64,000 nt of DNA from Erwinia mallotivora. GTDB taxonomy: Bacteria > Pseudomonadota > Gammaproteobacteria > Enterobacterales > Enterobacteriaceae. The notes under the pieces were generated by a model that searched no databases, was not told the DNA's origin, and saw nothing but the letters and a program-made list of their open reading frames with translations. Positions 4,149-13,383 of the stretch are shown here, one piece after another. The stretch lies in NCBI RefSeq assembly GCF_000590885.1, contig NZ_JFHN01000063.1:62001-126000 (forward strand), read 5' to 3'. Both the position numbers and the translations under genes were made by a program. How positions within the stretch are numbered: the first letter of the stretch is position 1; the number at the start of each line of letters is the position of its first letter.

Positions 4149-6059
4149 TTATATCCGGCTAAGGCAATCCAGCGCCACCACCCTGAAGCTGTCAAAATCC
4201 ACACTGTCCCGCAGCCGCGTCATTGCCCTTTCACGCATGAAAGTGACAAAAAGATCGTAGATCGCCATCGCTTCTTCATATTCGCTTTTACTGATAGCCA
4301 GCAGGAAAATCACACTGGCAGTTTCATCTCCCCAGCGGATACCCTGTGGTGCCAGTACGGTATAGACCACGGTTTTCTTCGCCAGCAGCCCCAATGAGTG
4401 TGGCAACGCAATACCCTCTCCCAGCATGGTACTGACAATCGCCTCGCGCTCCTCAACGGAAGGATAAAAATCACTGTCCACCACCCCTTCCGCCTCCAGC
4501 TGGTCGCAGAGCATCCGGAAAAGCGTGCTGCGGGCCATTGGGCGATCGACGATACAAAAGTGTCTGGCGTCAAAGAACTTTTCCAGCATTCCGGCACGGG
4601 TTCGATCCACCAGCACCTGTTTACCGATCTGCTCCAGCTGATAGCCGGTCGGAAACGGTGACATCACCACCACAGGTTTATTTTTCTCAGTCAGCCTCAC
4701 GGTGGAGATGACAAAATCCTCCTCAATACTTTCCTGCCGCTCATACTCGCGCAGCGAAATAATATGACGGATGACAATCTGCGGATATTTGCGCATCAGC
4801 ATGGTCTGGATCATACGAACGGTTGAGGTGCCGGTGTCGCACACCAGCAGGATCTGTGGATGGTGCTGATAGCTGACGTTGTAATGACGCTCCAGTCCGA
4901 CACCGATATGCAGAACCAGGAAACCCATTTCATTCTCACTGATCGCATACGGAGTGTATTTACCCCAACTTGAAACGGCAGCCAGCGTCACATCCCAGGC
5001 CATCGGATAGTGCTGTTTAATATTCGCCAGCAGCGGATTGGGGATGTTTATCTGATAGCGCACGCGGGTAATCATCGTTTTAATATGCGTCAGCAAATCT
5101 GCCCGCAATTGCATGTCGCGCTGAAGATCGAAACGGTAATGGCTGTTGATGTAGCTGAGGATATAGTTCACCAGCGACTCGCCGTCATCCGGCCCTATTG
5201 CGCTGAGGGCGATCTCCTCAACCCTTCTTGCCGCGATATTGACCCGCAGCCAGGCTTCTTCCGCAGGTGAAATTACCTTGCCGGTTAGCGGTCGCATCAG
5301 ATGAATAATCTGTCGGGCAGCGTCGTGCACATCCTGATCGACGTCATCGGCACTGAAATCAGACAGCGGATAGCCCTCGCTGATACGCCGCACCGCCACC
5401 GCACAGTAAATCCGCAGGTAAAGTTCACTGTCATCATTCAGACGAATATTGCAGCGGCTGAAGCACTGATTAAGCAGCGGGTGCAACCTCTCCAGCATCC
5501 CACTGTTCAGCGCTTCCAGCCGGAGTAGCGGATCGTCAGCATCCTCCTGAGCAATCTGGTACAACAGTTCGGTCAGACAGGTTCGCACTGCCACTTCACG
5601 GCCAAACAGTTTCATGCCGTAGCGCGGCCGGGTTTCAATCACCAGTTGATAACGCGCCAGCCTCTCACGTACCTCCGCCATATCACCCTGCAATGTCGCG
5701 CGACTGACAAACCACTCTTCCGCCAGATCTTCCAGCTTCAGCGAAAAAGCGGCGGTCAGGAAACGGATCAACAAATAATGCACGCGAGCGCCGGAGGTGC
5801 GCGGTATCCGCAAATGTGAAGGTGACTGCTGCTGCAACTGACCGTAGCGGGCAGCATCGGTAATGTTCATTTGATAACCTGCGCCACGACTGAGCACAAA
5901 GCAGACCCCGTGGTCAGCCAGCAGGGCATTCAGCGAGGTGATATCCGTGCGCACAGTGCGGGTCGATACCGCCAGACGCCGCGCCAGCTCGTCAGGAGGC
6001 AGCGTTTCGTTTTGCAGCAGACTAAACAGCTGGGAGAGGCGTTGATTTGGGAATCTCAA
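4149..6059 (-). CDS. PRD/EIIB/EIIA-containing transcriptional regulator (BglG/MtlR type)
   Basis: A 636-residue PTS-controlled regulator. Domains in order: DeoR-like winged HTH (residues 1-60, VSTRTVRTDI), a second Mga-like HTH (about 85-165, VSRATLQGDM), two PRDs (about 185-400; LTHI and LHIG histidines in the second), an EIIB-like domain with CDTGTST at Cys407, and an EIIA domain with GEGIALPHS at His554. This is the MtlR/ManR layout of DNA-binding activators whose activity depends on phosphorylation by HPr and cognate EII proteins. There is no AAA+ domain, so it is not a sigma-54 LevR-type regulator. The start is TTG at 6059, with AGGAA upstream; no ATG lies nearby. It closes the 4-13 kb cassette and probably controls it. 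Confidence 0.85.
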   Translation of the reverse strand: MRFPNQRLSQLFSLLQNETLPPDELARRLAVSTRTVRTDITSLNALLADHGVCFVLSRGAGYQMNITDAARYGQLQQQSPSHLRIPRTSGARVHYLLIRFLTAAFSLKLEDLAEEWFVSRATLQGDMAEVRERLARYQLVIETRPRYGMKLFGREVAVRTCLTELLYQIAQEDADDPLLRLEALNSGMLERLHPLLNQCFSRCNIRLNDDSELYLRIYCAVAVRRISEGYPLSDFSADDVDQDVHDAARQIIHLMRPLTGKVISPAEEAWLRVNIAARRVEEIALSAIGPDDGESLVNYILSYINSHYRFDLQRDMQLRADLLTHIKTMITRVRYQINIPNPLLANIKQHYPMAWDVTLAAVSSWGKYTPYAISENEMGFLVLHIGVGLERHYNVSYQHHPQILLVCDTGTSTVRMIQTMLMRKYPQIVIRHIISLREYERQESIEEDFVISTVRLTEKNKPVVVMSPFPTGYQLEQIGKQVLVDRTRAGMLEKFFDARHFCIVDRPMARSTLFRMLCDQLEAEGVVDSDFYPSVEEREAIVSTMLGEGIALPHSLGLLAKKTVVYTVLAPQGIRWGDETASVIFLLAISKSEYEEAMAIYDLFVTFMRERAMTRLRDSVDFDSFRVVALDCLSRI

Positions 6060-6126
6060 GGCTGTTCCTGTGGTGAAAAGGCAAGAAAAGGTGGTGCGAC
6101 GTGGCGCTTATCCACCCGGAACAAGA

Positions 6127-7272
6127 TTACGGCGTGAATACCAGCTGGGAAGGTGCGCCGACCGCCGTGTAATCACCACTGAACGACAGCACACCGCTGG
6201 CCGGGTCCACGCGAAAACGCGTGATGTTATCGCTGCGCTGATTGACCGCGTAGAGCGTCCTGCCATCGGCTGACAGGCTCAGCGTGCGTGTGTAGTCGCC
6301 CCGCGTCCAGACATCGTCTTTATGGCTCAGCGACCCGTCAGGCGCAATGGCAAAGTGCGCAATGCTGTTGTGCAGGCGATTAGCCACCCACAGATTCCTG
6401 CCAGCCTTATCCATCACCAGGCCAGCAGCGAAACTGGTGCCCTTATACCCTGCCGGTAAGGCTGAAACGGTCGCCCTCTCGCTCAGGGTGCCGGTATCGC
6501 TGTTTAACAGATAATGCGTCAGGGTCGAGGCTTCTTCATTAATCAGGTAGAGCAATTTACCGTCGGGATGAAAGACAAAATGACGAGGTCCGGCTCCGGC
6601 AGAAGAAGCGGCGATCCACGCAGGCTGGCTGGCCTGCAATTTGCCATTGTGGCTCAGGCGATACTGCCAGATACGATCCAGCCCGAGATCGGTTGAGAAA
6701 ACAAATCTGCCGGAGGGATCGCTGGCGATCATGTGCGCATGAGGACCGTTATGATCGCTGATGGCAAAGCTGCCCTCAACCGCCGCCGCCGGTTTCGTCG
6801 CGCCAGCCGGTCCCTGATGCTGCCGGGCGTCACTGGCTTCAGAAAGTCGGCCATCCGCCTGCACCGGCAGAACCGCGATGCTGCCACTGTTGTAGTTGGC
6901 TACCAGCAAAAATTTACCGTCCGGCGTCAGCGACAGATACACCGGCCCCGCCCCCTGTGAGCTGACCTGATTGCGCATTTTCAGACTGCCGTCACGGGCT
7001 ATGGCATAGGCCACCACCACACCTTTTTCGCTTTCACTGGCGACGTACAGGGTTTTGCCCTGTGCATCGATGGTCATCTGCGCCGGGCTGAGCTGCCTGC
7101 TGACCAGCGTTTTGTCACTCAGCGCCCCATCAGCCGGATTGACCTGAAAACGGTAAATGCCTTCTCCGTTCGGCGGATAGGTGCCCACCCAGGCATACTG
7201 TGCGCTTACCGCGCAGGACGTGGTCGCCATCAGAGCCAGAGACGCCGCGCAGATTACCGATCCATAACGCAT
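6127..7272 (-). CDS. Exported lactonase-family beta-propeller protein
   Basis: A 381-residue protein of the 6-phosphogluconolactonase (Pgl/YbhE-type, PF10282) seven-bladed propeller family. Repeats such as LYVASESEKG, LVANYNSGS, NGPHAHMIASDPSGRF and PRHFVFHPDGKLLYL mark the blades. Unlike cytosolic Pgl it has a hydrophobic N-terminus ending near AVSAQ, so it should be exported to the periplasm. The Cys before it is a poor lipobox. ATG at 7272 has GAGAGGAA upstream. It lies between the aldolase and regulator genes on the same strand. A role in opening a sugar lactone outside the cytoplasm is inferred; the family also contains non-enzymatic proteins. Confidence 0.75.
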   Translation of the reverse strand: MRYGSVICAASLALMATTSCAVSAQYAWVGTYPPNGEGIYRFQVNPADGALSDKTLVSRQLSPAQMTIDAQGKTLYVASESEKGVVVAYAIARDGSLKMRNQVSSQGAGPVYLSLTPDGKFLLVANYNSGSIAVLPVQADGRLSEASDARQHQGPAGATKPAAAVEGSFAISDHNGPHAHMIASDPSGRFVFSTDLGLDRIWQYRLSHNGKLQASQPAWIAASSAGAGPRHFVFHPDGKLLYLINEEASTLTHYLLNSDTGTLSERATVSALPAGYKGTSFAAGLVMDKAGRNLWVANRLHNSIAHFAIAPDGSLSHKDDVWTRGDYTRTLSLSADGRTLYAVNQRSDNITRFRVDPASGVLSFSGDYTAVGAPSQLVFTP

Positions 7273-7423
7273 AGTGTTCCTCTCAGTATCAGTGAAAGCC
7301 GCTGAGGTGACGCTGCCGGAGCCCCTGGGGATTGTCGCGGCAGCATACCTGCCTCATCCGGGCGGGTTGCATTCAGAAACCGTTGGTCGCAGCCAACAAC
7401 ATATGGAGCTCACCGGCGGGGTT

Positions 7424-8164
7424 TCAATCCAGCAGGCTTCTGGTCATTGCCAGTAATCTGCTGACATCGCTGGGCCGGGTATTGCCTGTCTCTTTATCGA
7501 TTATCGAACTGTAGATATGCGGGATGATTTTACTGACCCCCGCGTCAAGGGCGATCTGCAAAATCTGCTGATAGTTAGCCAGATCAATACCGCCGGTTGG
7601 CTCCAGCCAGAAATCCTGCTCCGCGCAGGCTTTTGCCACAACGCTGAACTCATCAATCGCCCGCAGGCCGCCCATAGGGAAATATTTTACCGAGCTGCCG
7701 CCAAAGTCTTTCAGCATGGCGATGGCCGTTGCCACTGGCACAATGCCATCGGGCGCTTTGGCACTGCGTGGCCCGGTGGAGATTTTAACCATTCCCACCC
7801 TACCGGTGGGGGAGATCAGACCGTTAACCACCGTCTGGTCCTGTCCCAGCAGCGCCCGGCTGGTTGCCACACCGGTAAACACCTGGTTAACATGCTGCGG
7901 CTGTAGCTGCGCTGAAATGGCGCTGACCATCGCAGACTGGTTTGGATCGCCTGCTCCCAGCCCCACCGACAGTGCATTATCAATCAGCCGGGCATAATCA
8001 CGCATATCCGTCACCGCGCTCGCCACATCGGGGTAGTTTTTCGACAGCACGCCCACCAGCACGTAGCCCTCTGCGGCCTGCCACACCTCGCGCGCGTTCT
8101 CTTTCGAACCGGCCAGCACGTTCAGACAGACGCGATCCCGGTAAAATTTGGGGGTCAGCGTCAT
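7424..8164 (-). CDS. KDGP-aldolase-like protein (DgaF / EF_0839 family)
   Basis: A 246-residue TIM-barrel protein related to DgaF, the 2-keto-3-deoxy-6-phosphogluconate aldolase of the Salmonella D-glucosaminate pathway. The segment SSVKYFPMGG places Lys160 in the position of the Schiff-base lysine of KDPG aldolases (KFFPA motif). EPTGGIDLANYQQIL near the C-terminus suits a phosphate-binding loop. It would split a ketodeoxy sugar-acid phosphate into pyruvate and glyceraldehyde 3-phosphate. Its ATG overlaps the stop of the PLP-enzyme gene by four bases (ATGA), so the two are translationally coupled. The exact substrate is not proven. Confidence 0.82.
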   Translation of the reverse strand: MTLTPKFYRDRVCLNVLAGSKENAREVWQAAEGYVLVGVLSKNYPDVASAVTDMRDYARLIDNALSVGLGAGDPNQSAMVSAISAQLQPQHVNQVFTGVATSRALLGQDQTVVNGLISPTGRVGMVKISTGPRSAKAPDGIVPVATAIAMLKDFGGSSVKYFPMGGLRAIDEFSVVAKACAEQDFWLEPTGGIDLANYQQILQIALDAGVSKIIPHIYSSIIDKETGNTRPSDVSRLLAMTRSLLD

Positions 8165-9282
8165 GATGTTGTTGCTCCTGACTGCAGTGTACTGATGCAG
8201 CTGAACAGGGTATGCAGCTGTTCCGCCGATACGCTACGGACATCGACTTCCACCATCCCTTCGTTCGCCTTATAGCCACGAAAGTAAATGGCAATATCGC
8301 CGGTTTTCAGCGCCTGTACCACTTCAGAGGTGGCACGGCCAATGATCGCTTCATCAAAATGAATTTCCGTGCGGGCGATATCACGTCCGGCAGCATCCCA
8401 GACCACCCTGGCGCGGATACCGTGCAGGGTGTTCAGCTGGTTGATAAACGGCGTCATTTTTTCCACCATCTGCGCACCAGATACCCTCTCCTGCACCCTG
8501 TAATTTTCAATCGCCTGGGTCAGACCAAGAATGCTCTCCTTGCCGACCTTCATCGCCCGGCCAATGCCCATCGACTGACGTTTTACCCAGCTGACGTACT
8601 GCCGACGTCCGACGACCAGCCCGCTGGTTGGACCTTCAATTGCTTTAGCGCCGCTGTAAATCACCAGATCGGCTCCTGCCTGGTAATAGCACTGTAAATC
8701 CTCTTCCGCTGCCGCATCGACAATCAGCGGCACACCGTGTTGCCGCGCCACCCGCGCGGCGTCAGCCACGCTGAGATGGCTTTTTTGTACGCAGTGATGA
8801 GACTTGACGTAGAGGACAGCGGCGGTCTGCGGGCCCATCGCCGCACTGAGTTGCTCAGCCGAGCATTCGTTGGCATAACCGGCTTCCACCAGCCGTCCTC
8901 CCCCCATGGTCACCATAGTGCCAACCGGTGCGCCATAGTTAACGTTGTGACCTTTTGGCAACACGATGTCGTGTGGCACCGTCAGCGGTGCAGCGTGCAG
9001 ATTCTCCAGCAGCCAGTCGTTATCCTGCACAATCACCGCGGCCACCGACTGGGCGATACCCGCAGAGGCGCAGGAGACCACCACCGCGTCCTCACACCCA
9101 AGCAGCCCCGCAATATAAGCCCCGGTTTTATCCACCAAATCTTTCATTTCAAAATAGTGATTAAGACCGTACTGCACGGTTTCAACCACGTCCGCCGCCG
9201 GGGTGGAGACACCAAGAATAGTCATGCGGCCGGAGGCATTGATCACCTGTTTCAGGCCATATTTTTCATAAATCGAAGACAT
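8161..9282 (-). CDS. SelA-like PLP-dependent ammonia-lyase (DgaE family)
   Basis: A 373-residue fold-type I PLP enzyme related to selenocysteine synthase and to DgaE, the D-glucosaminate-6-phosphate ammonia-lyase. Visible motifs are VINASGRMT at the N-terminus, VDAAAEEDL with the PLP-binding Asp, and SGAKAIEGPTSG with Lys213 as the internal aldimine. The expected reaction removes ammonia from an amino-sugar acid phosphate to give the keto-deoxy acid for the adjacent aldolase. The ATG at 9282 was preferred to 9300 because AAGGGA lies just upstream and homologues begin MSSIYEKYGL. It overlaps the amidohydrolase end by 17 bases. Confidence 0.85.
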   Translation of the reverse strand: MSSIYEKYGLKQVINASGRMTILGVSTPAADVVETVQYGLNHYFEMKDLVDKTGAYIAGLLGCEDAVVVSCASAGIAQSVAAVIVQDNDWLLENLHAAPLTVPHDIVLPKGHNVNYGAPVGTMVTMGGGRLVEAGYANECSAEQLSAAMGPQTAAVLYVKSHHCVQKSHLSVADAARVARQHGVPLIVDAAAEEDLQCYYQAGADLVIYSGAKAIEGPTSGLVVGRRQYVSWVKRQSMGIGRAMKVGKESILGLTQAIENYRVQERVSGAQMVEKMTPFINQLNTLHGIRARVVWDAAGRDIARTEIHFDEAIIGRATSEVVQALKTGDIAIYFRGYKANEGMVEVDVRSVSAEQLHTLFSCISTLQSGATTS

Positions 9283-10399
9283 GCTGTTTTTTCCCTTCAT
9301 CGGTAATAAACCACCTGCCGCCCACCATCGCGGCCAGCGGTATCAGCTGTTGTTCACCCGCAACAGATTCGCCCTCAGAATCAATGAACAGGCAATTTTC
9401 CGCCTGCAAATCAAACAGGGTCAGATCGGCGTCACCACCCACCCTTAACCGCCCTTTTTGATGCAGCCGCAGCCCTTCTGCCGCATTGATCGTCACGCAA
9501 TCAATGATTTGCGGCAGCGTCATCCCGACACTGAAAAATTTGGACATCACATGGGCAAGGCTGTGCACCGGGCCACTGAGGCGGTTACGGCAGTAAATGT
9601 CAGAACTGATGGTGTGCGGCAGAATACCCTGCGCGATAGCGGCCCGTGCCACCGCAAAGCTGAAGCTGGCGCTACCGTGACCAACGTCCAGACGCACACC
9701 GCGCTGTAAGGCCTGCGTAATCGAGGCACGCAAGGTGCCGGTTGGGGTGAGGATGCGGTTGGGCTTGCCGTGATAGCAGTGGGTGATGATATCGCCCTGA
9801 CTAAGCAGATCAGCTATCTCATCCAGGTCCGGCGGGGTGTTGCCAATGTGTACCATCAGCGGCAGACCGCCGTTCTCCCGCTGGATCGCTTTGGCGCGAA
9901 TCAGTGGCTTAATACCGTTATCACCTGTCACGCTGCTGCTCATGCGGGCTTTGAAACCCACAATAAACTCCGGCAGGCGTACCAGCGCATCGCGCACGGC
10001 AGCAGCGTCAATCTGGCGCATATCCGCCAGCTCGTTCTGGGTGACAATCCCGCTGCGGGCAATATTCAGCAGCGCATAAACCTGAGTACGGGCGCTGCGG
10101 GTGAGCTGATAAAATTGTTCCACCTCGTCAGCCCCGGTGCTGCCTGCATCCACCACCGTGGTCACGCCGCTTTCCACCCCAACACGGTCGGGCGAGTCAT
10201 GGTAAAGCGGCGACTGCGGATAGCAGTGGACGTGAGAGTCAATCCAGCCCGCACTTAACCAGAACCGCCCCTGAAGATCGCACTGCTGCAATGCGCTGCC
10301 GTTCACCTCGCCCAGCGCGGCAATTTTACCCCTGAGGATGGCAATATCCGTCAGGCTGCCATCCGTCAGTCGCGCCCGCCGGATGATAAGATCAAACAT
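9266..10399 (-). CDS. Amidohydrolase/deacetylase family metallohydrolase (COG3964, EF_0837 family)
   Basis: A 377-residue amidohydrolase-superfamily protein. The metal site is visible: DSHVHC (His56, His58), a probable carboxylated lysine in FKARMSS (Lys150), then LMVHIGN, THCYHG and SSDIYC with the catalytic Asp. Some COG3964 members remove acetyl groups from alpha-acetyl carboxylates; deacetylation of an N-acyl sugar acid is an inference from context here. ATG at 10399 follows AGGAG. It lies 59 bases after the DUF4310 membrane gene and overlaps the PLP-enzyme gene, so it is in the same operon. Confidence 0.83.
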   Translation of the reverse strand: MFDLIIRRARLTDGSLTDIAILRGKIAALGEVNGSALQQCDLQGRFWLSAGWIDSHVHCYPQSPLYHDSPDRVGVESGVTTVVDAGSTGADEVEQFYQLTRSARTQVYALLNIARSGIVTQNELADMRQIDAAAVRDALVRLPEFIVGFKARMSSSVTGDNGIKPLIRAKAIQRENGGLPLMVHIGNTPPDLDEIADLLSQGDIITHCYHGKPNRILTPTGTLRASITQALQRGVRLDVGHGSASFSFAVARAAIAQGILPHTISSDIYCRNRLSGPVHSLAHVMSKFFSVGMTLPQIIDCVTINAAEGLRLHQKGRLRVGGDADLTLFDLQAENCLFIDSEGESVAGEQQLIPLAAMVGGRWFITDEGKKQHVFDL

Positions 10400-10458
10400 G
10401 GCAAACTCCTGTATTCATCCATTGAGAATGGTTTATTCCGCGCCACACCGTCTTTAGC

Positions 10459-11103
10459 TCAAAGCGTGATCGGAAAAACGGCACCCAGCAGCATTGCGCC
10501 AAGAATGGCACCGCCGGTGATCGGTTTATCCCACAGATAGAACAGCAGCGCGCCGAGCAGCGCACCCAGACCAATCGGGATGGAGGCCGCCATGGCAGAG
10601 AGGATAATCAGCGGTCCCAGAAAGCGACCAGAGGCGTTGCCCGCGCCCATCATTACGTCTGCGCCGTAGGTCGAGTCACTGTTGTTAATGGTAAATTTCC
10701 GGGCCAGCACAATCAGATAGCCCGTTGCCATCCCCAGCAGCAGGCCGGTAAGCAGTGAGGCGGCAAAGTTGGCAACCGGATAGACAATTCCCGCGCCCAG
10801 CAGCATTGCCGGTACCCCCAGACCAATGCCGGTCTGAACCGCGCCACCAATATCCAGAATGCCCACCAGCGACCCTTCAATGATGCGGGCAAACAGGAAG
10901 CTGGCCCCAAAGGCCGCCACCGCCCCATAGACACCGGTTTCCATGCCGGAACGCAGCATCGAAACAAAAGCCACCTCGTTGAAAGCCCCCAGCCCATAGA
11001 CGTAGTACATGTGCGTCCCGGCAAACACCCCGGCAGAGAGCAGTCCGACAAAAATCGGGAAAGACCAGTCGGCATACCAGAAACCGCGCGTTGACTCTTC
11101 CAT
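10459..11103 (-). CDS. DUF4310 family membrane protein (EF_0833 family)
   Basis: A 214-residue, very hydrophobic Gly/Ala-rich protein with about five or six membrane segments (for example FPIFVGLLSAGVFAGT, GLGVPAMLLGAGIVYPVA and PIGLGALLGALLFYLW). A polar loop NNSDSTYGADVMMGAGNASG near residue 145 may be functional. Always paired with the DUF4311 protein in the families I know. It resembles no classical EIIC or ABC permease by eye. It most likely forms one half of an inner-membrane transporter. ATG at 11103 has GAGGG upstream, 14 bases after the DUF4311 stop. Confidence 0.8.
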   Translation of the reverse strand: MEESTRGFWYADWSFPIFVGLLSAGVFAGTHMYYVYGLGAFNEVAFVSMLRSGMETGVYGAVAAFGASFLFARIIEGSLVGILDIGGAVQTGIGLGVPAMLLGAGIVYPVANFAASLLTGLLLGMATGYLIVLARKFTINNSDSTYGADVMMGAGNASGRFLGPLIILSAMAASIPIGLGALLGALLFYLWDKPITGGAILGAMLLGAVFPITL

Positions 11104-11116
11104 TTACATCGCCCTC

Positions 11117-11893
11117 TTATTTCCCGCTCAGGGTGTTATGAATCATCTCCAGCCAGCCCGGGATCCCCAGCTGGAAGGACTGCAATACTTTCATATCAAA
11201 GCCGCGGAAAAATCCGCTGAGCACAAACAGCAGCACGATGGCCGACATCATTACCCCGGTAACTTTGTTCCAGCCGCTCTCTTCCACGCCTTTGCCAATC
11301 AGAATGCCCAGCACCAGGCCCGGCACCGCGTTGCCCATAATCAACTGCGCCAGCCCGCCAAACAGCGTGGCCCAGGCACCGGACTTTTTCCCGGCATCAA
11401 TGGCCGCCAGCCAGAAGATCACCGGCATCACGGTGTTAACCAACAGGTTGGCGGCAGGCACCAGCACTTTAACCGCCGTCACCTGAAGCGCAGCTGGCAC
11501 TGCGGAAGCGGTGGAGTTAAGGAAGGCAACCACGATCATGCCGATCAGCCCACAGGCCAGGGCCATCTTTTGGGGATTGTGCAGGGTTTCAGCGACGCGG
11601 CGATTTTTCACCATCAGCGCGGCGGCTCCCCAGTGGGGAATAATGCGGTGATCGACGTCCTGGGTGAAGGAACCGGCCGCCACCGAAGACGCCCAGGCAT
11701 TGAAGAAGAACCCCAGACCAAACGAGAAGTGAGAAGCCGGATCGCCCTCGCAGGAGTTGAGCTCGCCCAGGGTACGAAATGCCCCCATCCCCTGGGTGGC
11801 GGGCGCATGAAACATACGGGCTGCACCTGCGCCCACGCCAACCCCCACCAGGCCACCGATGATCAGCGACTTTAAAAGAATAATTAAAAACAT
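11117..11893 (-). CDS. DUF4311 family membrane protein (EF_0832 family)
   Basis: A 258-residue polytopic membrane protein, about six hydrophobic segments, rich in Gly and Ala. The first loop carries the distinctive GELNSCEGDPASHFSFG, followed by GFFFNAWASSVAAG. The conserved Cys, Glu, Asp and His there are candidates for substrate binding. The C-terminus is amphipathic (PGWLEMIHNTLSG). It is adjacent to DUF4310 and presumably forms the membrane channel with it. The ATG at 11893 follows AAGGAAAG. No function has been assigned to this family to my knowledge. Confidence 0.8.
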   Translation of the reverse strand: MFLIILLKSLIIGGLVGVGVGAGAARMFHAPATQGMGAFRTLGELNSCEGDPASHFSFGLGFFFNAWASSVAAGSFTQDVDHRIIPHWGAAALMVKNRRVAETLHNPQKMALACGLIGMIVVAFLNSTASAVPAALQVTAVKVLVPAANLLVNTVMPVIFWLAAIDAGKKSGAWATLFGGLAQLIMGNAVPGLVLGILIGKGVEESGWNKVTGVMMSAIVLLFVLSGFFRGFDMKVLQSFQLGIPGWLEMIHNTLSGK

Positions 11894-11962
11894 CAGTCTT
11901 TCCTTTCAGGCTTACGCCAACGTTTTTAAATCATGATTATTGCTGCCCTGGCGGGCAGATTT

Positions 11963-12259
11963 TTATTCCGTAATGAAGTCCACTTTATCCACCTCGATGA
12001 CGCTGACGTTAACGGTAATCTCCAGCTCAATGCGGTAACGCCGTCGCTCCCGTGCCAGAAAAAAGAACAGAAACTTCTCCTGCCTGATGCTTTCCCGCGC
12101 CTGAACCACCTTTACATCCTGCGGTTCAATACGCAGCAGCACCTGGTCTGAGGATTTCAGCAGCGTCTGTTGTACCCGGCTCAGCGCATCAGCGAAGGCT
12201 TTGCGCCTGCTGTCGCCCGAACCGCTGACGTTCACCGTGGTGGTGAATTGCCTTTTCAT
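11963..12259 (-). CDS. DUF4312 family small soluble protein (EF_0831 family)
   Basis: A 98-residue protein, mixed charge, no signal or membrane segment. It has a ferredoxin-like alternation of strands and helices (KRQFTTTVNVSGSG, RKAFADALSRVQQTLL, VLLRIEPQDVKVVQA, RYRIELEITVNVSVIEV). It sits four bases after the SFCGS gene and 69 bases before DUF4311, so it is embedded in the putative transport module. I infer a cytoplasmic accessory or energy-coupling subunit; no catalytic residue is obvious. Confidence 0.78.
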   Translation of the reverse strand: MKRQFTTTVNVSGSGDSRRKAFADALSRVQQTLLKSSDQVLLRIEPQDVKVVQARESIRQEKFLFFFLARERRRYRIELEITVNVSVIEVDKVDFITE

Positions 12260-12262
12260 TAC

Positions 12263-12625
12263 TCAGCTACCGTGTTTCTTGTGCCACGCCTGAACCAGAC
12301 GTTCACCCAGTTCCTCTTTGTCCATAAAACCAAAACCCAGCACCGTGGCACCTTCATTAATGGCCGTCACCCCTTCTTCAATGGCCCGCATCCCGTGCTT
12401 TGCTTTATAGCCATACTTGTTCTGCGCGGTGATCGCCCCTGCGCCGCCGCTGCCGCAAAACGAAATGCCAAAAGAAGCGTTTTCTGCTTTCATCACGTCG
12501 CCCAGCTTCATATCTGCCGCCACCCCCGGCACAACGACGGCTCTGCCCCCCGCACGCTCCACGCCTGCGGCAACTTTCTGACCTTTACCCAGGCGATCGC
12601 CAATCACGACAATGATTTGTGACAT
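12263..12625 (-). CDS. SFCGS family glycine-rich protein (EF_0830 family)
   Basis: A 120-residue soluble protein starting with a beta-strand and a Gly-rich turn (IIVVIGDRLGKGQ), an EIIB-like or Rossmann-like opening. It carries the family hallmark SFCGSGGAGA with Cys57. A single conserved cysteine in such a small protein within a PTS-linked cassette invites comparison with the phosphocysteine of EIIB, but this is inference. ATG at 12625 has AAGGAAGGAA upstream; a longer in-frame extension upstream has no homologue-like sequence and overlaps the PRD gene. Spacing to DUF4312 is three bases. Confidence 0.8.
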   Translation of the reverse strand: MSQIIVVIGDRLGKGQKVAAGVERAGGRAVVVPGVAADMKLGDVMKAENASFGISFCGSGGAGAITAQNKYGYKAKHGMRAIEEGVTAINEGATVLGFGFMDKEELGERLVQAWHKKHGS

Positions 12626-12647
12626 CTTTTGTTCCTTCCTTTTTCGT

Positions 12648-12995
12648 TCAACAGGATTTTTCGTTGGTTTTTGCCACTTCAAAATGGACTGACAGTAGCC
12701 AGGATTCCTCCACCGGCAGATTAGTGAACAGATCGACAACCTGCTGTGCCAGCGCCATTGATTCGGCAGAGATATCCTCAAACAGCTCAGCCTCCACTTC
12801 CGGCAGCGGCTCGCCGGTCAGCGAGCGCATGGCCATTGCCCGCACATGCGAAGCCAGCATCTGCTGCTGAATGTCGTTGGGATAAATCTCTCTGCTGGCG
12901 AATAATCCGGCAATCTGGCTCATTACCCGATCGGCGAGTGCCTGAATGGCCTGGTCAGCCGCTGCTGTCCCCTCCGACACCGTCCCTTCTTTCAC
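12648..12995 (-). CDS. Stand-alone PRD-domain protein (EF_0829 family)
   Basis: A 115-residue protein consisting of one PTS regulation domain. His50 in MLASHVRAM and His104 in SVHFEVA are in the positions of the two phosphorylatable PRD histidines. It has no DNA- or RNA-binding domain, so it would act as a phosphorylation sensor or as a partner of the PRD regulator or transport proteins. The start is GTG at 12995, preceded by GGGG. It is the first gene of the cassette, 22 bases before the SFCGS gene. Confidence 0.72.
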   Translation of the reverse strand: MKEGTVSEGTAAADQAIQALADRVMSQIAGLFASREIYPNDIQQQMLASHVRAMAMRSLTGEPLPEVEAELFEDISAESMALAQQVVDLFTNLPVEESWLLSVHFEVAKTNEKSC

Positions 12996-13206
12996 TGGCT
13001 GCCCCTTATTTATCGTTCAGGCTCAGGCACGAAACCGAGTTTATTGCTGATAAAAATAAGTTAACGCCAGGCCGTGGCCGTGTGGAGCGCCACTTTTTCC
13101 ACTTCAAAGCGGAAATAGCGCCGTAGCGGACGATCTCCGCCACAAAAACGGCGTCTCGTGCATGAAAAGGGCATAAGTCACAGGAAAATCATATCAACCC
13201 GGCTGA

Positions 13207-13227
13207 TGATGCAAATTCAATGCATCA
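13207..13227. promoter_or_regulatory. Inverted repeat TGATGCA-N7-TGCATCA, candidate operator
   Basis: Perfect 7-base arms separated by seven bases, about 210 bases upstream of the first cassette gene. The size and symmetry suit a dimeric regulator, for example the PRD activator at the end of the cassette. Assignment is inferred from position only. Confidence 0.4.
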
Positions 13228-13354: not shown

Positions 13355-13383
13355 TCAGAAAATACGGGCTCAGCTGAGCCCGT
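13355..13383 (-). terminator. Terminator after cybC
   Basis: The perfect palindrome ACGGGCTCAGCTGAGCCCGT lies six bases after the cybC stop and is followed on the minus strand by ATTTT. It isolates cybC from the cassette downstream. Confidence 0.7.

Follow-up and report, generated by a model that had tools for sequence, protein, structure and literature searches.

Introduction

The dga operon of Salmonella is described as encoding a phosphotransferase system (PTS), DgaABCD, together with the enzymes DgaE and DgaF, with phosphorylation of the substrate taking place during transport (PMC9529869). The ong pathway, as outlined for Pseudoalteromonas prydzensis, deacetylates and deaminates N-acetylglucosaminate before the kinase KdgK acts, with no prior phosphorylation (PMC9537276). 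We analysed a 64,000-nt window of the Erwinia mallotivora contig NZ_JFHN01000063.1 (GCF_000590885.1), which contains a cassette of ten minus-strand genes (positions 4149-12995) that resembles each of these systems in part. We propose, with a probability of roughly one half, that these genes form an operon for the catabolism of an N-acyl 2-amino-2-deoxy-aldonic acid, with uptake by a phosphorylating importer that is driven by phosphoenolpyruvate (PEP) and has no sequence relation to the known enzyme II (EII) components of the PTS.

Like the Salmonella operon, the cassette encodes a DgaF aldolase and a lyase of the DgaE family, in which the His and Arg residues are the same. Unlike it, it carries the genes PRD-SFCGS-DUF4312-DUF4311-DUF4310 in place of a PTS, it includes an amidohydrolase, an optional lactonase and a PRD-EIIB-EIIA regulator, and its DgaE falls below the equivalog cut-off for that enzyme. 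With the ong pathway it would have in common deacetylation, deamination and the formation of 2-keto-3-deoxy-6-phosphogluconate (KDPG) from an acyl-aminoaldonate. The ong set itself is described as an SSS symporter, the D-aminoacylase-like OngB, the fold-type III pyridoxal 5'-phosphate (PLP) enzyme OngC, KdgK, RidA and a MurR/RpiR-type regulator, and searches with Pfam and NCBIfam found none of these families among the ten window proteins.

The names EF_0829-EF_0839 (Enterococcus faecalis) and AHA_39xx (Aeromonas) are those of hypothetical-protein models in NCBIfam. As the original prediction had stated, the E. faecalis locus has the same families in nearly the same order; it differs in an extra EIIC, MupG and PfkB kinase and in placing the regulator first. 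Our literature search found no paper naming DUF4310, DUF4311 or DUF4312, its matches to 'SFCGS' look unrelated by title and abstract, and no functional study of the transporter genes was apparent from the listings. For the E. faecalis genes, EF0839 or its identical copy EF2975 is reported behind a urine-induced promoter (PMC2912369), a role of EF0839 in amino-sugar metabolism has been suggested with Tn-seq fitness cited (PMC7701990), dgaF is reported as enriched in urinary isolates (PMC10746210), and dgaEF appears in a listing as duplicated in strain V583 (PMC7396535).

Results

The cassette is conserved as a unit

In order to see how widely this arrangement recurs, we scanned genome contigs for DUF4311 relatives, which gave at least 498 pattern-matched stretches, where a single gene can account for two. 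From that scan the 80 best loci, all of them close, were retained, so that most of the loci analysed are close relatives, and they were combined with annotated plasmid loci and other genome stretches. SFCGS, DUF4311, DUF4310, DgaE and DgaF are all encoded in 91 fetched loci, 90 of them distinct (L050 and L113 are the same contig). Outside the 91 stand L043 and L069, which are truncated by contig ends and have no enzyme genes, the decayed L006, and the short L001, L002, L087-L094 and L101-L107. Nine core genes are complete in 88 of the 90 distinct loci, and 87 of these share one order, the exception being the E. faecalis locus with its leading regulator; one core gene is missing by count in each of the other two (the regulator in L077, DUF4312 in L018). 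With 88 distinct complete loci, 87 of them in the same order, the arrangement is not due to chance. The lactonase gene, present in 33 of the 88, is optional. In an ungapped tail comparison the DgaE proteins of the locus set fall into 46 clusters at 90%.

DUF4311 exceeded its cut-off in 14 of the 148 genomes sampled from the order. The cassette was found in Erwiniaceae, Serratia, Yersinia, Klebsiella, a record labelled 'Xenophilus', Bartonella plasmids and E. faecalis, as well as in three genomes of 2.2-2.7 Mb from one family of the order; the evidence from Firmicutes comes from plasmid records. In the class sample DUF4310 was found in a single genome out of 274, the source genome itself, and the 12 phylum-sample genomes with DUF4311 (of 398) all belong to the window's own family. 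Two queries found no relative among viral contigs, and a search for near DNA matches to window positions 4149-13000, run in near mode only, returned none from 5,426 complete E. coli genomes. Weak DUF4311 matches in two relatives sit in a J-domain protein, which we take to be DjlA-like, and were read as chance.

The recurrence in Aeromonas that had been predicted was also borne out, by a decayed copy in an Aeromonas caviae record (L006) and by a further locus (L114) that shares its flanking genes. In the decayed copy (L006:10163-14569) the beginning of DUF4310 passes over into the aldolase region, with neither the amidohydrolase nor the PLP gene found at that site. Two other irregular loci were seen: an E. 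faecalis record in which the KDPG aldolase is split into two overlapping open frames (L003:17735-18477), and a locus with two unassigned frames of 587 and 151 aa between aldolase and regulator (L113:3168-5383), where other loci have the lactonase or nothing.

Transporter swaps and linked kinases point to a possible phosphorylating importer

We compared the cassette with DgaF clusters that use other transporters. Of 14 plasmid records with a DgaF relative, 11 were examined; three of the 14 are distant (~30%), and two of these distant-aldolase records list no DgaE. The position held by PRD-SFCGS-DUF4312-DUF4311-DUF4310 is taken in relatives by a mannose-class PTS, a disaccharide PTS or a gluconate symporter. 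A Lactobacillus paracasei plasmid thus combines a mannose-class PTS with DgaE and DgaF and has no linked kinase. Priestia combines a gluconate:H+ symporter with amidohydrolase, DgaE, DgaF and a sugar kinase, and Clostridioides difficile a lactose/cellobiose-type EIIC with MupG, amidohydrolase, DgaE, DgaF and a kinase; the C. difficile arrangement was also recognised in an unannotated Niallia record by hidden Markov model.

A kinase was scored as linked if it was a relative of any of three PfkB kinases and lay no more than 1.5 kb from the core genes. Such a kinase is linked to only one of the 90 distinct loci with DUF4312, DUF4311 and DUF4310 (hereafter DUF431x), namely that of E. faecalis, which also has EIIC and MupG, and to each of the three DgaF clusters that have a symporter or disaccharide PTS and no DUF431x genes. 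The simplest reading of these gene contents is that a kinase would be needed when the monomer enters unphosphorylated, and would not be needed with a mannose PTS or the DUF431x set. This pattern among relatives suggests that the DUF431x set behaves like a phosphorylating transporter. The original prediction had taken the lack of a sugar kinase to mean phosphorylation during transport, which was a fair inference, given that the kinase is absent from 89 of the 90 loci, and one that the transporter swaps and the Bartonella genes described below strengthen. GntP-family symporters also occur in the context of DgaE and would suit an aldonic acid substrate.

The enzyme half fits breakdown of an N-acyl aminoaldonate

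The DgaF protein exceeds the cut-off of the KDPG aldolase equivalog NF047796, and its closest solved chain is 3m0z. The PLP enzyme is a member of the DgaE subfamily, although its score lies below the DgaE equivalog cut-off (380.6 vs 600), so 'glucosaminate 6-phosphate' names the class of its substrate and not the identity. The DgaF match supports the original prediction.

Residue roles have been described in DgaE for two His and for three Arg beside a manually docked substrate phosphate (PMC9529869). All five have aligned counterparts in the window. The three Arg, one of the His and the PLP Lys are invariant over 88 rows, and the remaining His is kept in 99%. Every aligned DgaE that is linked to a kinase or a PTS, including the symporter-linked Priestia enzyme, retains the three Arg. 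Three homologues whose neighbours are RidA and ABC or GntP-type transporters, with no kinase seen, have Cys in place of the third. DgaE-like PLP enzymes with RidA and ABC/GntP transporters were seen on Rhizobium, Paraburkholderia and Paracoccus plasmids (L122, L123 and L125); such RidA-linked clusters perhaps represent a separate route for an unphosphorylated amino acid.

The amidohydrolase belongs to the EF_0837 (COG3964) family. Relatives of this enzyme deacetylate (R)-2-acyl acids, an activity for which D-configured 2-acylamino acids, N-acetyl-D-glucosaminate among them, would be suitable substrates. Together, the enzyme half plausibly fits breakdown of an N-acyl 2-amino-2-deoxy-aldonate via its 6-phosphate to pyruvate and glyceraldehyde 3-phosphate. 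Distant KDGP (2-keto-3-deoxygluconate 6-phosphate) aldolases also occur with phosphotriesterase-like and creatininase-like genes and an ABC transporter or ascorbate-type PTS (L130:6282-8723 and L131:6260-9437), which is another uncharacterised cluster.

The proposed importer proteins carry invariant His and Cys residues

Over 93 unique rows of the small PRD protein, identity reaches 99% or more in only 12 of 115 columns. His50 and His104, which occur in every one of these rows, are two of the 12. Cys57 of SFCGS is likewise invariant (86 of 86 rows). A simple hydropathy scan found six hydrophobic segments in DUF4311 and seven in DUF4310, and DUF4312 has no transmembrane-like segment. Comparison of DUF4312 with solved structures gave only short, weak matches to unrelated proteins, and a profile-profile comparison of DUF4311 with DUF4310 from shallow alignments gave nothing. 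The only Pfam EIIA domain among the ten proteins is that of the regulator.

SFCGS resembles RpiB/LacAB isomerases in its predicted fold and in an aligned Cys. The AlphaFold model has a predicted local distance difference test score (pLDDT) of 80.2 and a predicted TM-score (pTM) of 0.79, with low confidence at residues 59-65 and 71-73, just after the Cys. In Foldseek, RpiB was the top match (E 3.2e-3, none under 1e-3) and the lactose EIIB 3nbm ranked sixth (E 5.8e-3); the top 15 VIA rows are all of RpiB or LacAB type (Z 9.7 to 8.0), the best with a root-mean-square deviation of 3.0 over 105 aligned residues. All 31 SFCGS members scanned match the RpiB model TIGR02133 at E<=0.05 (best 3.9e-5). 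Cys66 and His99 are the catalytic residues of RpiB. The SFCGS Cys aligns with Cys66 of E. coli RpiB (2vvr), but SFCGS proteins are unlike the isomerases in lacking the His99 position (79 of 86 rows have Asn in the corresponding column), in being shorter and in scoring under the family cut-offs (for the window protein, PF02502 14.1 vs 24.7 bits and TIGR02133 18.1 vs 168.2). SFCGS is therefore RpiB-like in predicted fold but probably not an isomerase.

A plasmid-borne EI-HPr fusion follows the cassette in Bartonella

Bartonella sp. HY406 and HY761 carry the cassette on plasmids, with a gene for a fusion of enzyme I (EI) and HPr after it. The HPr and EI active-site motifs of the HY406 protein are recognisable and intact, and neither a classical EII nor a sugar kinase is among the genes listed for that plasmid, in a table that describes itself as incomplete. 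The nearest plasmid-borne relatives of this fusion outside Bartonella are from Caballeronia and Paraburkholderia (~55% identical); the one examined is a Caballeronia EIIA-HPr-EI fusion adjoining ptsG.

The E. coli yhf genes may be a parallel module

The genes yhfY-yhfU-yhfT of E. coli show a similar make-up, next to PLP enzymes: their products are a small PRD protein, another small protein in which a Cys motif and a weak RpiB signal are seen, and a membrane protein. YhfY is a PRD protein (E 7e-4, just under the Pfam cut-off) and YhfU a DUF2620 protein with a weak LacAB_rpiB match (E 0.065). The yhf genes differ in their enzymes (Php, YhfW, YhfX and YhfS) and in that YhfT has no detectable relation to DUF4311 or DUF4310. 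A Cetobacterium plasmid has the order YhfZ, PRD, DUF2620, YhfT, amidase, phosphotriesterase-like protein and PLP enzymes, and in Lactobacillus rhamnosus a PRD protein, a DUF2620 protein and a membrane protein are listed with consecutive accession numbers near rpoN (PMC7513527).

DUF2620 and SFCGS proteins have in common a Cys-centred, glycine-rich motif (Cys-x-Ser/Thr-Gly) and show reciprocal weak model matches (E 0.034 to 0.14). The proteins that match are the SFCGS of the window and of E. faecalis and the DUF2620 of Cetobacterium; the SFCGS proteins of Bartonella and L110 gave no match to the DUF2620 model. Profile-profile comparisons, again from shallow alignments, were suggestive for PRD-YhfY (E 1.9e-4, probability 48%), weak for SFCGS-YhfU (E 0.026, probability 1.9%), and empty for YhfT against DUF4311 and DUF4310 and for DUF4312 against YhfU. 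YhfY and the Cetobacterium PRD protein keep the first conserved His and not the second. The yhf trio may be a parallel module, but with YhfT unrelated to DUF4311 or DUF4310 in these comparisons, a common origin of the whole module is no more than a conjecture.

Organisation of the locus

The ten genes are present in the order first proposed, as found with Pfam and NCBIfam searches, and all eight cassette families exceed curated NCBIfam cut-offs in the window (Table 1). The label of the first gene holds by TIGR03582 and not by the Pfam PRD model, which it fails to reach (E 0.13). The genes had been described as mostly overlapping or a few bases apart; the intergenic gaps, in order, are 19, 3, 69, 13, 59, -20, -4, 151 and 67 bases, so that description holds only in part. 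With preferred ATG starts, the first gap becomes 22 and the amidohydrolase-DgaE overlap 17. In the regulator, an EIIB-like stretch with its Cys (QILLVCDTGTS) was read directly from the sequence; His325 and His384 are each conserved in 86 of 86 rows, the EIIB Cys407 in 82 of 86 and the EIIA His554 in 85 of 86. The lactonase propeller has, by eye, a signal-peptide-like N-terminus. The promoter-like site and the hairpin are consensus matches only, with counts near the shuffled expectation. The cassette is flanked by genes that we take to encode a BON-domain lipoprotein and cytochrome b562, and the Klebsiella cassette likewise adjoins cybC.

Table 1. Features of the cassette in window coordinates, followed by two yhf-type trios in their own records; scores are given against the family cut-off
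Feature	Position	Strand	Score or match	Proposed role or remark
Small PRD protein (TIGR03582)	12648..12995	-	125.4 vs 69.35	proposed phosphoryl acceptor (EIIA-like) or phospho-sensor
SFCGS (PF14272/TIGR03577)	12263..12625	-	217 vs 141.1	predicted RpiB-like fold, Cys57; proposed phosphocarrier or substrate-handling subunit
DUF4312 (TIGR03578)	11963..12259	-	130.2 vs 89.65	small partner, no transmembrane-like segment
DUF4311 (TIGR03580) membrane protein	11117..11893	-	493.4 vs 301.1	proposed permease half
DUF4310 (TIGR03579) membrane protein	10459..11103	-	380.5 vs 215.45	proposed permease half
EF_0837-like amidohydrolase/deacetylase (TIGR03583, COG3964)	9266..10399	-	539.4 vs 432.15 bits	proposed N-deacylase
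DgaE-family PLP ammonia lyase (TIGR01437)	8161..9282	-	576.3 vs 385.3	
KDPG aldolase DgaF	7424..8164	-	TIGR03581 394.3 vs 222.4; NF047796 382 vs 300 bits	
Lactonase-family seven-bladed propeller	6127..7272	-	Pfam Lactonase PF10282, E 8.2e-96	optional member
HTH-Mga-PRD-EIIB-EIIA regulator	4149..6059	-	Pfam HTH, Mga, PRD, EIIA_2	
Promoter-like site upstream of PRD gene	13188..13215	-	consensus match	4 sites in region vs 5.0 in shuffles
Terminator-like hairpin between upstream cytochrome b562-like gene and cassette	13364..13383	-	consensus match	13 vs 9.3 in shuffles
yhfY-yhfU-yhfT, E. coli	L132:8194-10236			make-up like PRD-SFCGS-membrane genes of window
PRD-DUF2620-YhfT trio, Cetobacterium plasmid	L095:6033-11423			make-up like PRD-SFCGS-membrane genes of window

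Discussion

From gene content and order, family assignments, residue conservation, the predicted SFCGS fold and the pattern of kinases and transporters, we infer a substrate, a set of reactions and a path of phosphotransfer for this cassette. The most likely substrate is N-acetyl-D-glucosaminate or a compound closely related to it. PRD, SFCGS, DUF4312, DUF4311 and DUF4310 would form a dedicated importer, driven by PEP through EI and HPr, that delivers the phosphorylated acid; DUF4311 and DUF4310 would be its membrane permease, and the small PRD protein (through His) and SFCGS (through Cys, on an RpiB-type fold) its phosphoryl relay. The amidohydrolase would then remove the acyl group, the DgaE-family enzyme would form KDPG by eliminating ammonia and losing water, and DgaF would cleave KDPG to pyruvate and glyceraldehyde 3-phosphate. 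The PRD-EIIB-EIIA regulator would sense the state of phosphorylation and switch the operon, and the exported lactonase, where present, would open a lactone outside the cell.

Several observations weigh against this proposal. With regard to the importer, PRD, SFCGS, DUF4312, DUF4311 and DUF4310 match no EII domain model of Pfam or NCBIfam at E<=1; the top structural matches of SFCGS are RpiB and not EIIB, and its Cys follows the third strand; and the AF2 model of DUF4310 was unusable (pLDDT 51.6), as were its two fold searches. The two Bartonella plasmids are near-identical and represent one event, their EI-HPr could serve only the PRD/EIIA regulator, and the presence of EI in all 14 cassette-bearing genomes tested is expected in this order and does not discriminate. 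The swap argument rests on four plasmid records without DUF431x, and the kinase test covered relatives of three PfkB kinases. The linked kinases resemble KDG (2-keto-3-deoxygluconate) kinases, so that in those clusters phosphorylation may follow DgaE (though their DgaEs retain the arginines), and KdgK, which is over its cut-off in 11 of the 14 cassette-bearing genomes, could act in trans. The first two phosphate-region Arg are retained in the three ABC/GntP-linked DgaE homologues, and all three in a Streptomyces homologue whose context is not known. Finally, the relatives of GntP include the D-serine transporter DsdX.

A possible, if doubtful, alternative retains the same catabolism and makes the DUF431x set a non-phosphorylating secondary importer, with a kinase elsewhere (for example KdgK, as in ong) phosphorylating the acid or KDG and with PRD only regulating. 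It draws on the KdgK count just given, on the deacetylation and deamination reported to precede KdgK in ong (PMC9537276), on the KDG kinase-like character of the kinases linked in Firmicutes and on the lack of EII homology in the importer proteins. However, KdgK falls under its cut-off in three of the 14 genomes, two listed as 100% complete and the third 75% complete, and the two complete ones argue that a general KDG kinase is not the source of the phosphate everywhere. Also against a secondary importer are the 89 of 90 loci with no linked kinase, compared with a kinase in all three symporter or disaccharide-PTS clusters, the EI-HPr carried by the Bartonella plasmids, and the phosphate-region arginines kept in DgaE.

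In a further reading, which we consider unlikely, SFCGS (together with DUF4312) would be an enzyme of RpiB/LacAB type that has the sugar acid or the corresponding phosphate as substrate, and DUF4311 and DUF4310 would be a simple permease. The predicted fold, the TIGR02133 matches of all members scanned and the Cys aligned with Cys66 of 2vvr would suit such an enzyme, but the scores lie far under the family cut-offs and the residue-99 column is mostly Asn. RpiB also has C-terminal arginines, of which SFCGS proteins stop short, and an aldose-ketose isomerase would have no obvious step on an aldonic acid. Very unlikely, in our judgment, is a purely regulatory circuit of EI-HPr, PRD protein and EIIA/EIIB with transport and chemistry on a different substrate class: PRD domains are classically regulatory, the regulator does combine PRD, EIIB-like and EIIA domains, and DgaE is under its equivalog cut-off, but DgaF is over its own, Priestia has a gluconate-type symporter, a stand-alone PRD gene precedes SFCGS in the ordered loci, and a PRD protein with a small protein and a membrane protein recurs in the yhf clusters of E. 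coli and Cetobacterium.

A link to chitin was considered and was not supported: among the genomes sampled from the order, LPMO_10, the lytic polysaccharide monooxygenase domain, occurs in 6 of the 14 that bear the cassette and in 32 of the other 134 (Fisher p 0.19). Elsewhere, an Aeromonas chitin proteome is reported as unable to confirm an oxidised-chitin route (PMC11653859), and a glucosaminate route has been predicted for chitinotrophic archaea (PMC12343721).

Our proposal of a PEP-driven importer and N-acyl aminoaldonate catabolism gives five orphan families a joint, testable function. We know of no PTS-driven importer of this make-up; if the DUF431x set is PTS-driven, it would to our knowledge be the first, it would mean that the RpiB fold can be used in phosphotransfer, and the orphan yhf module of E. 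coli would gain a suggested function. More tentatively, the five genes might constitute a new class of PEP-dependent group-translocating permease, with a PRD His phosphocarrier and an RpiB-fold phosphocysteine carrier, of which yhfY-yhfU-yhfT would be a second branch with an unrelated-looking permease. Were that so, both orphan clusters would be PTS-like systems overlooked by current annotation. A PTS-driven importer would also mean that N-acyl aminoaldonates can be degraded by a phosphate-first route as well as by that of ong.

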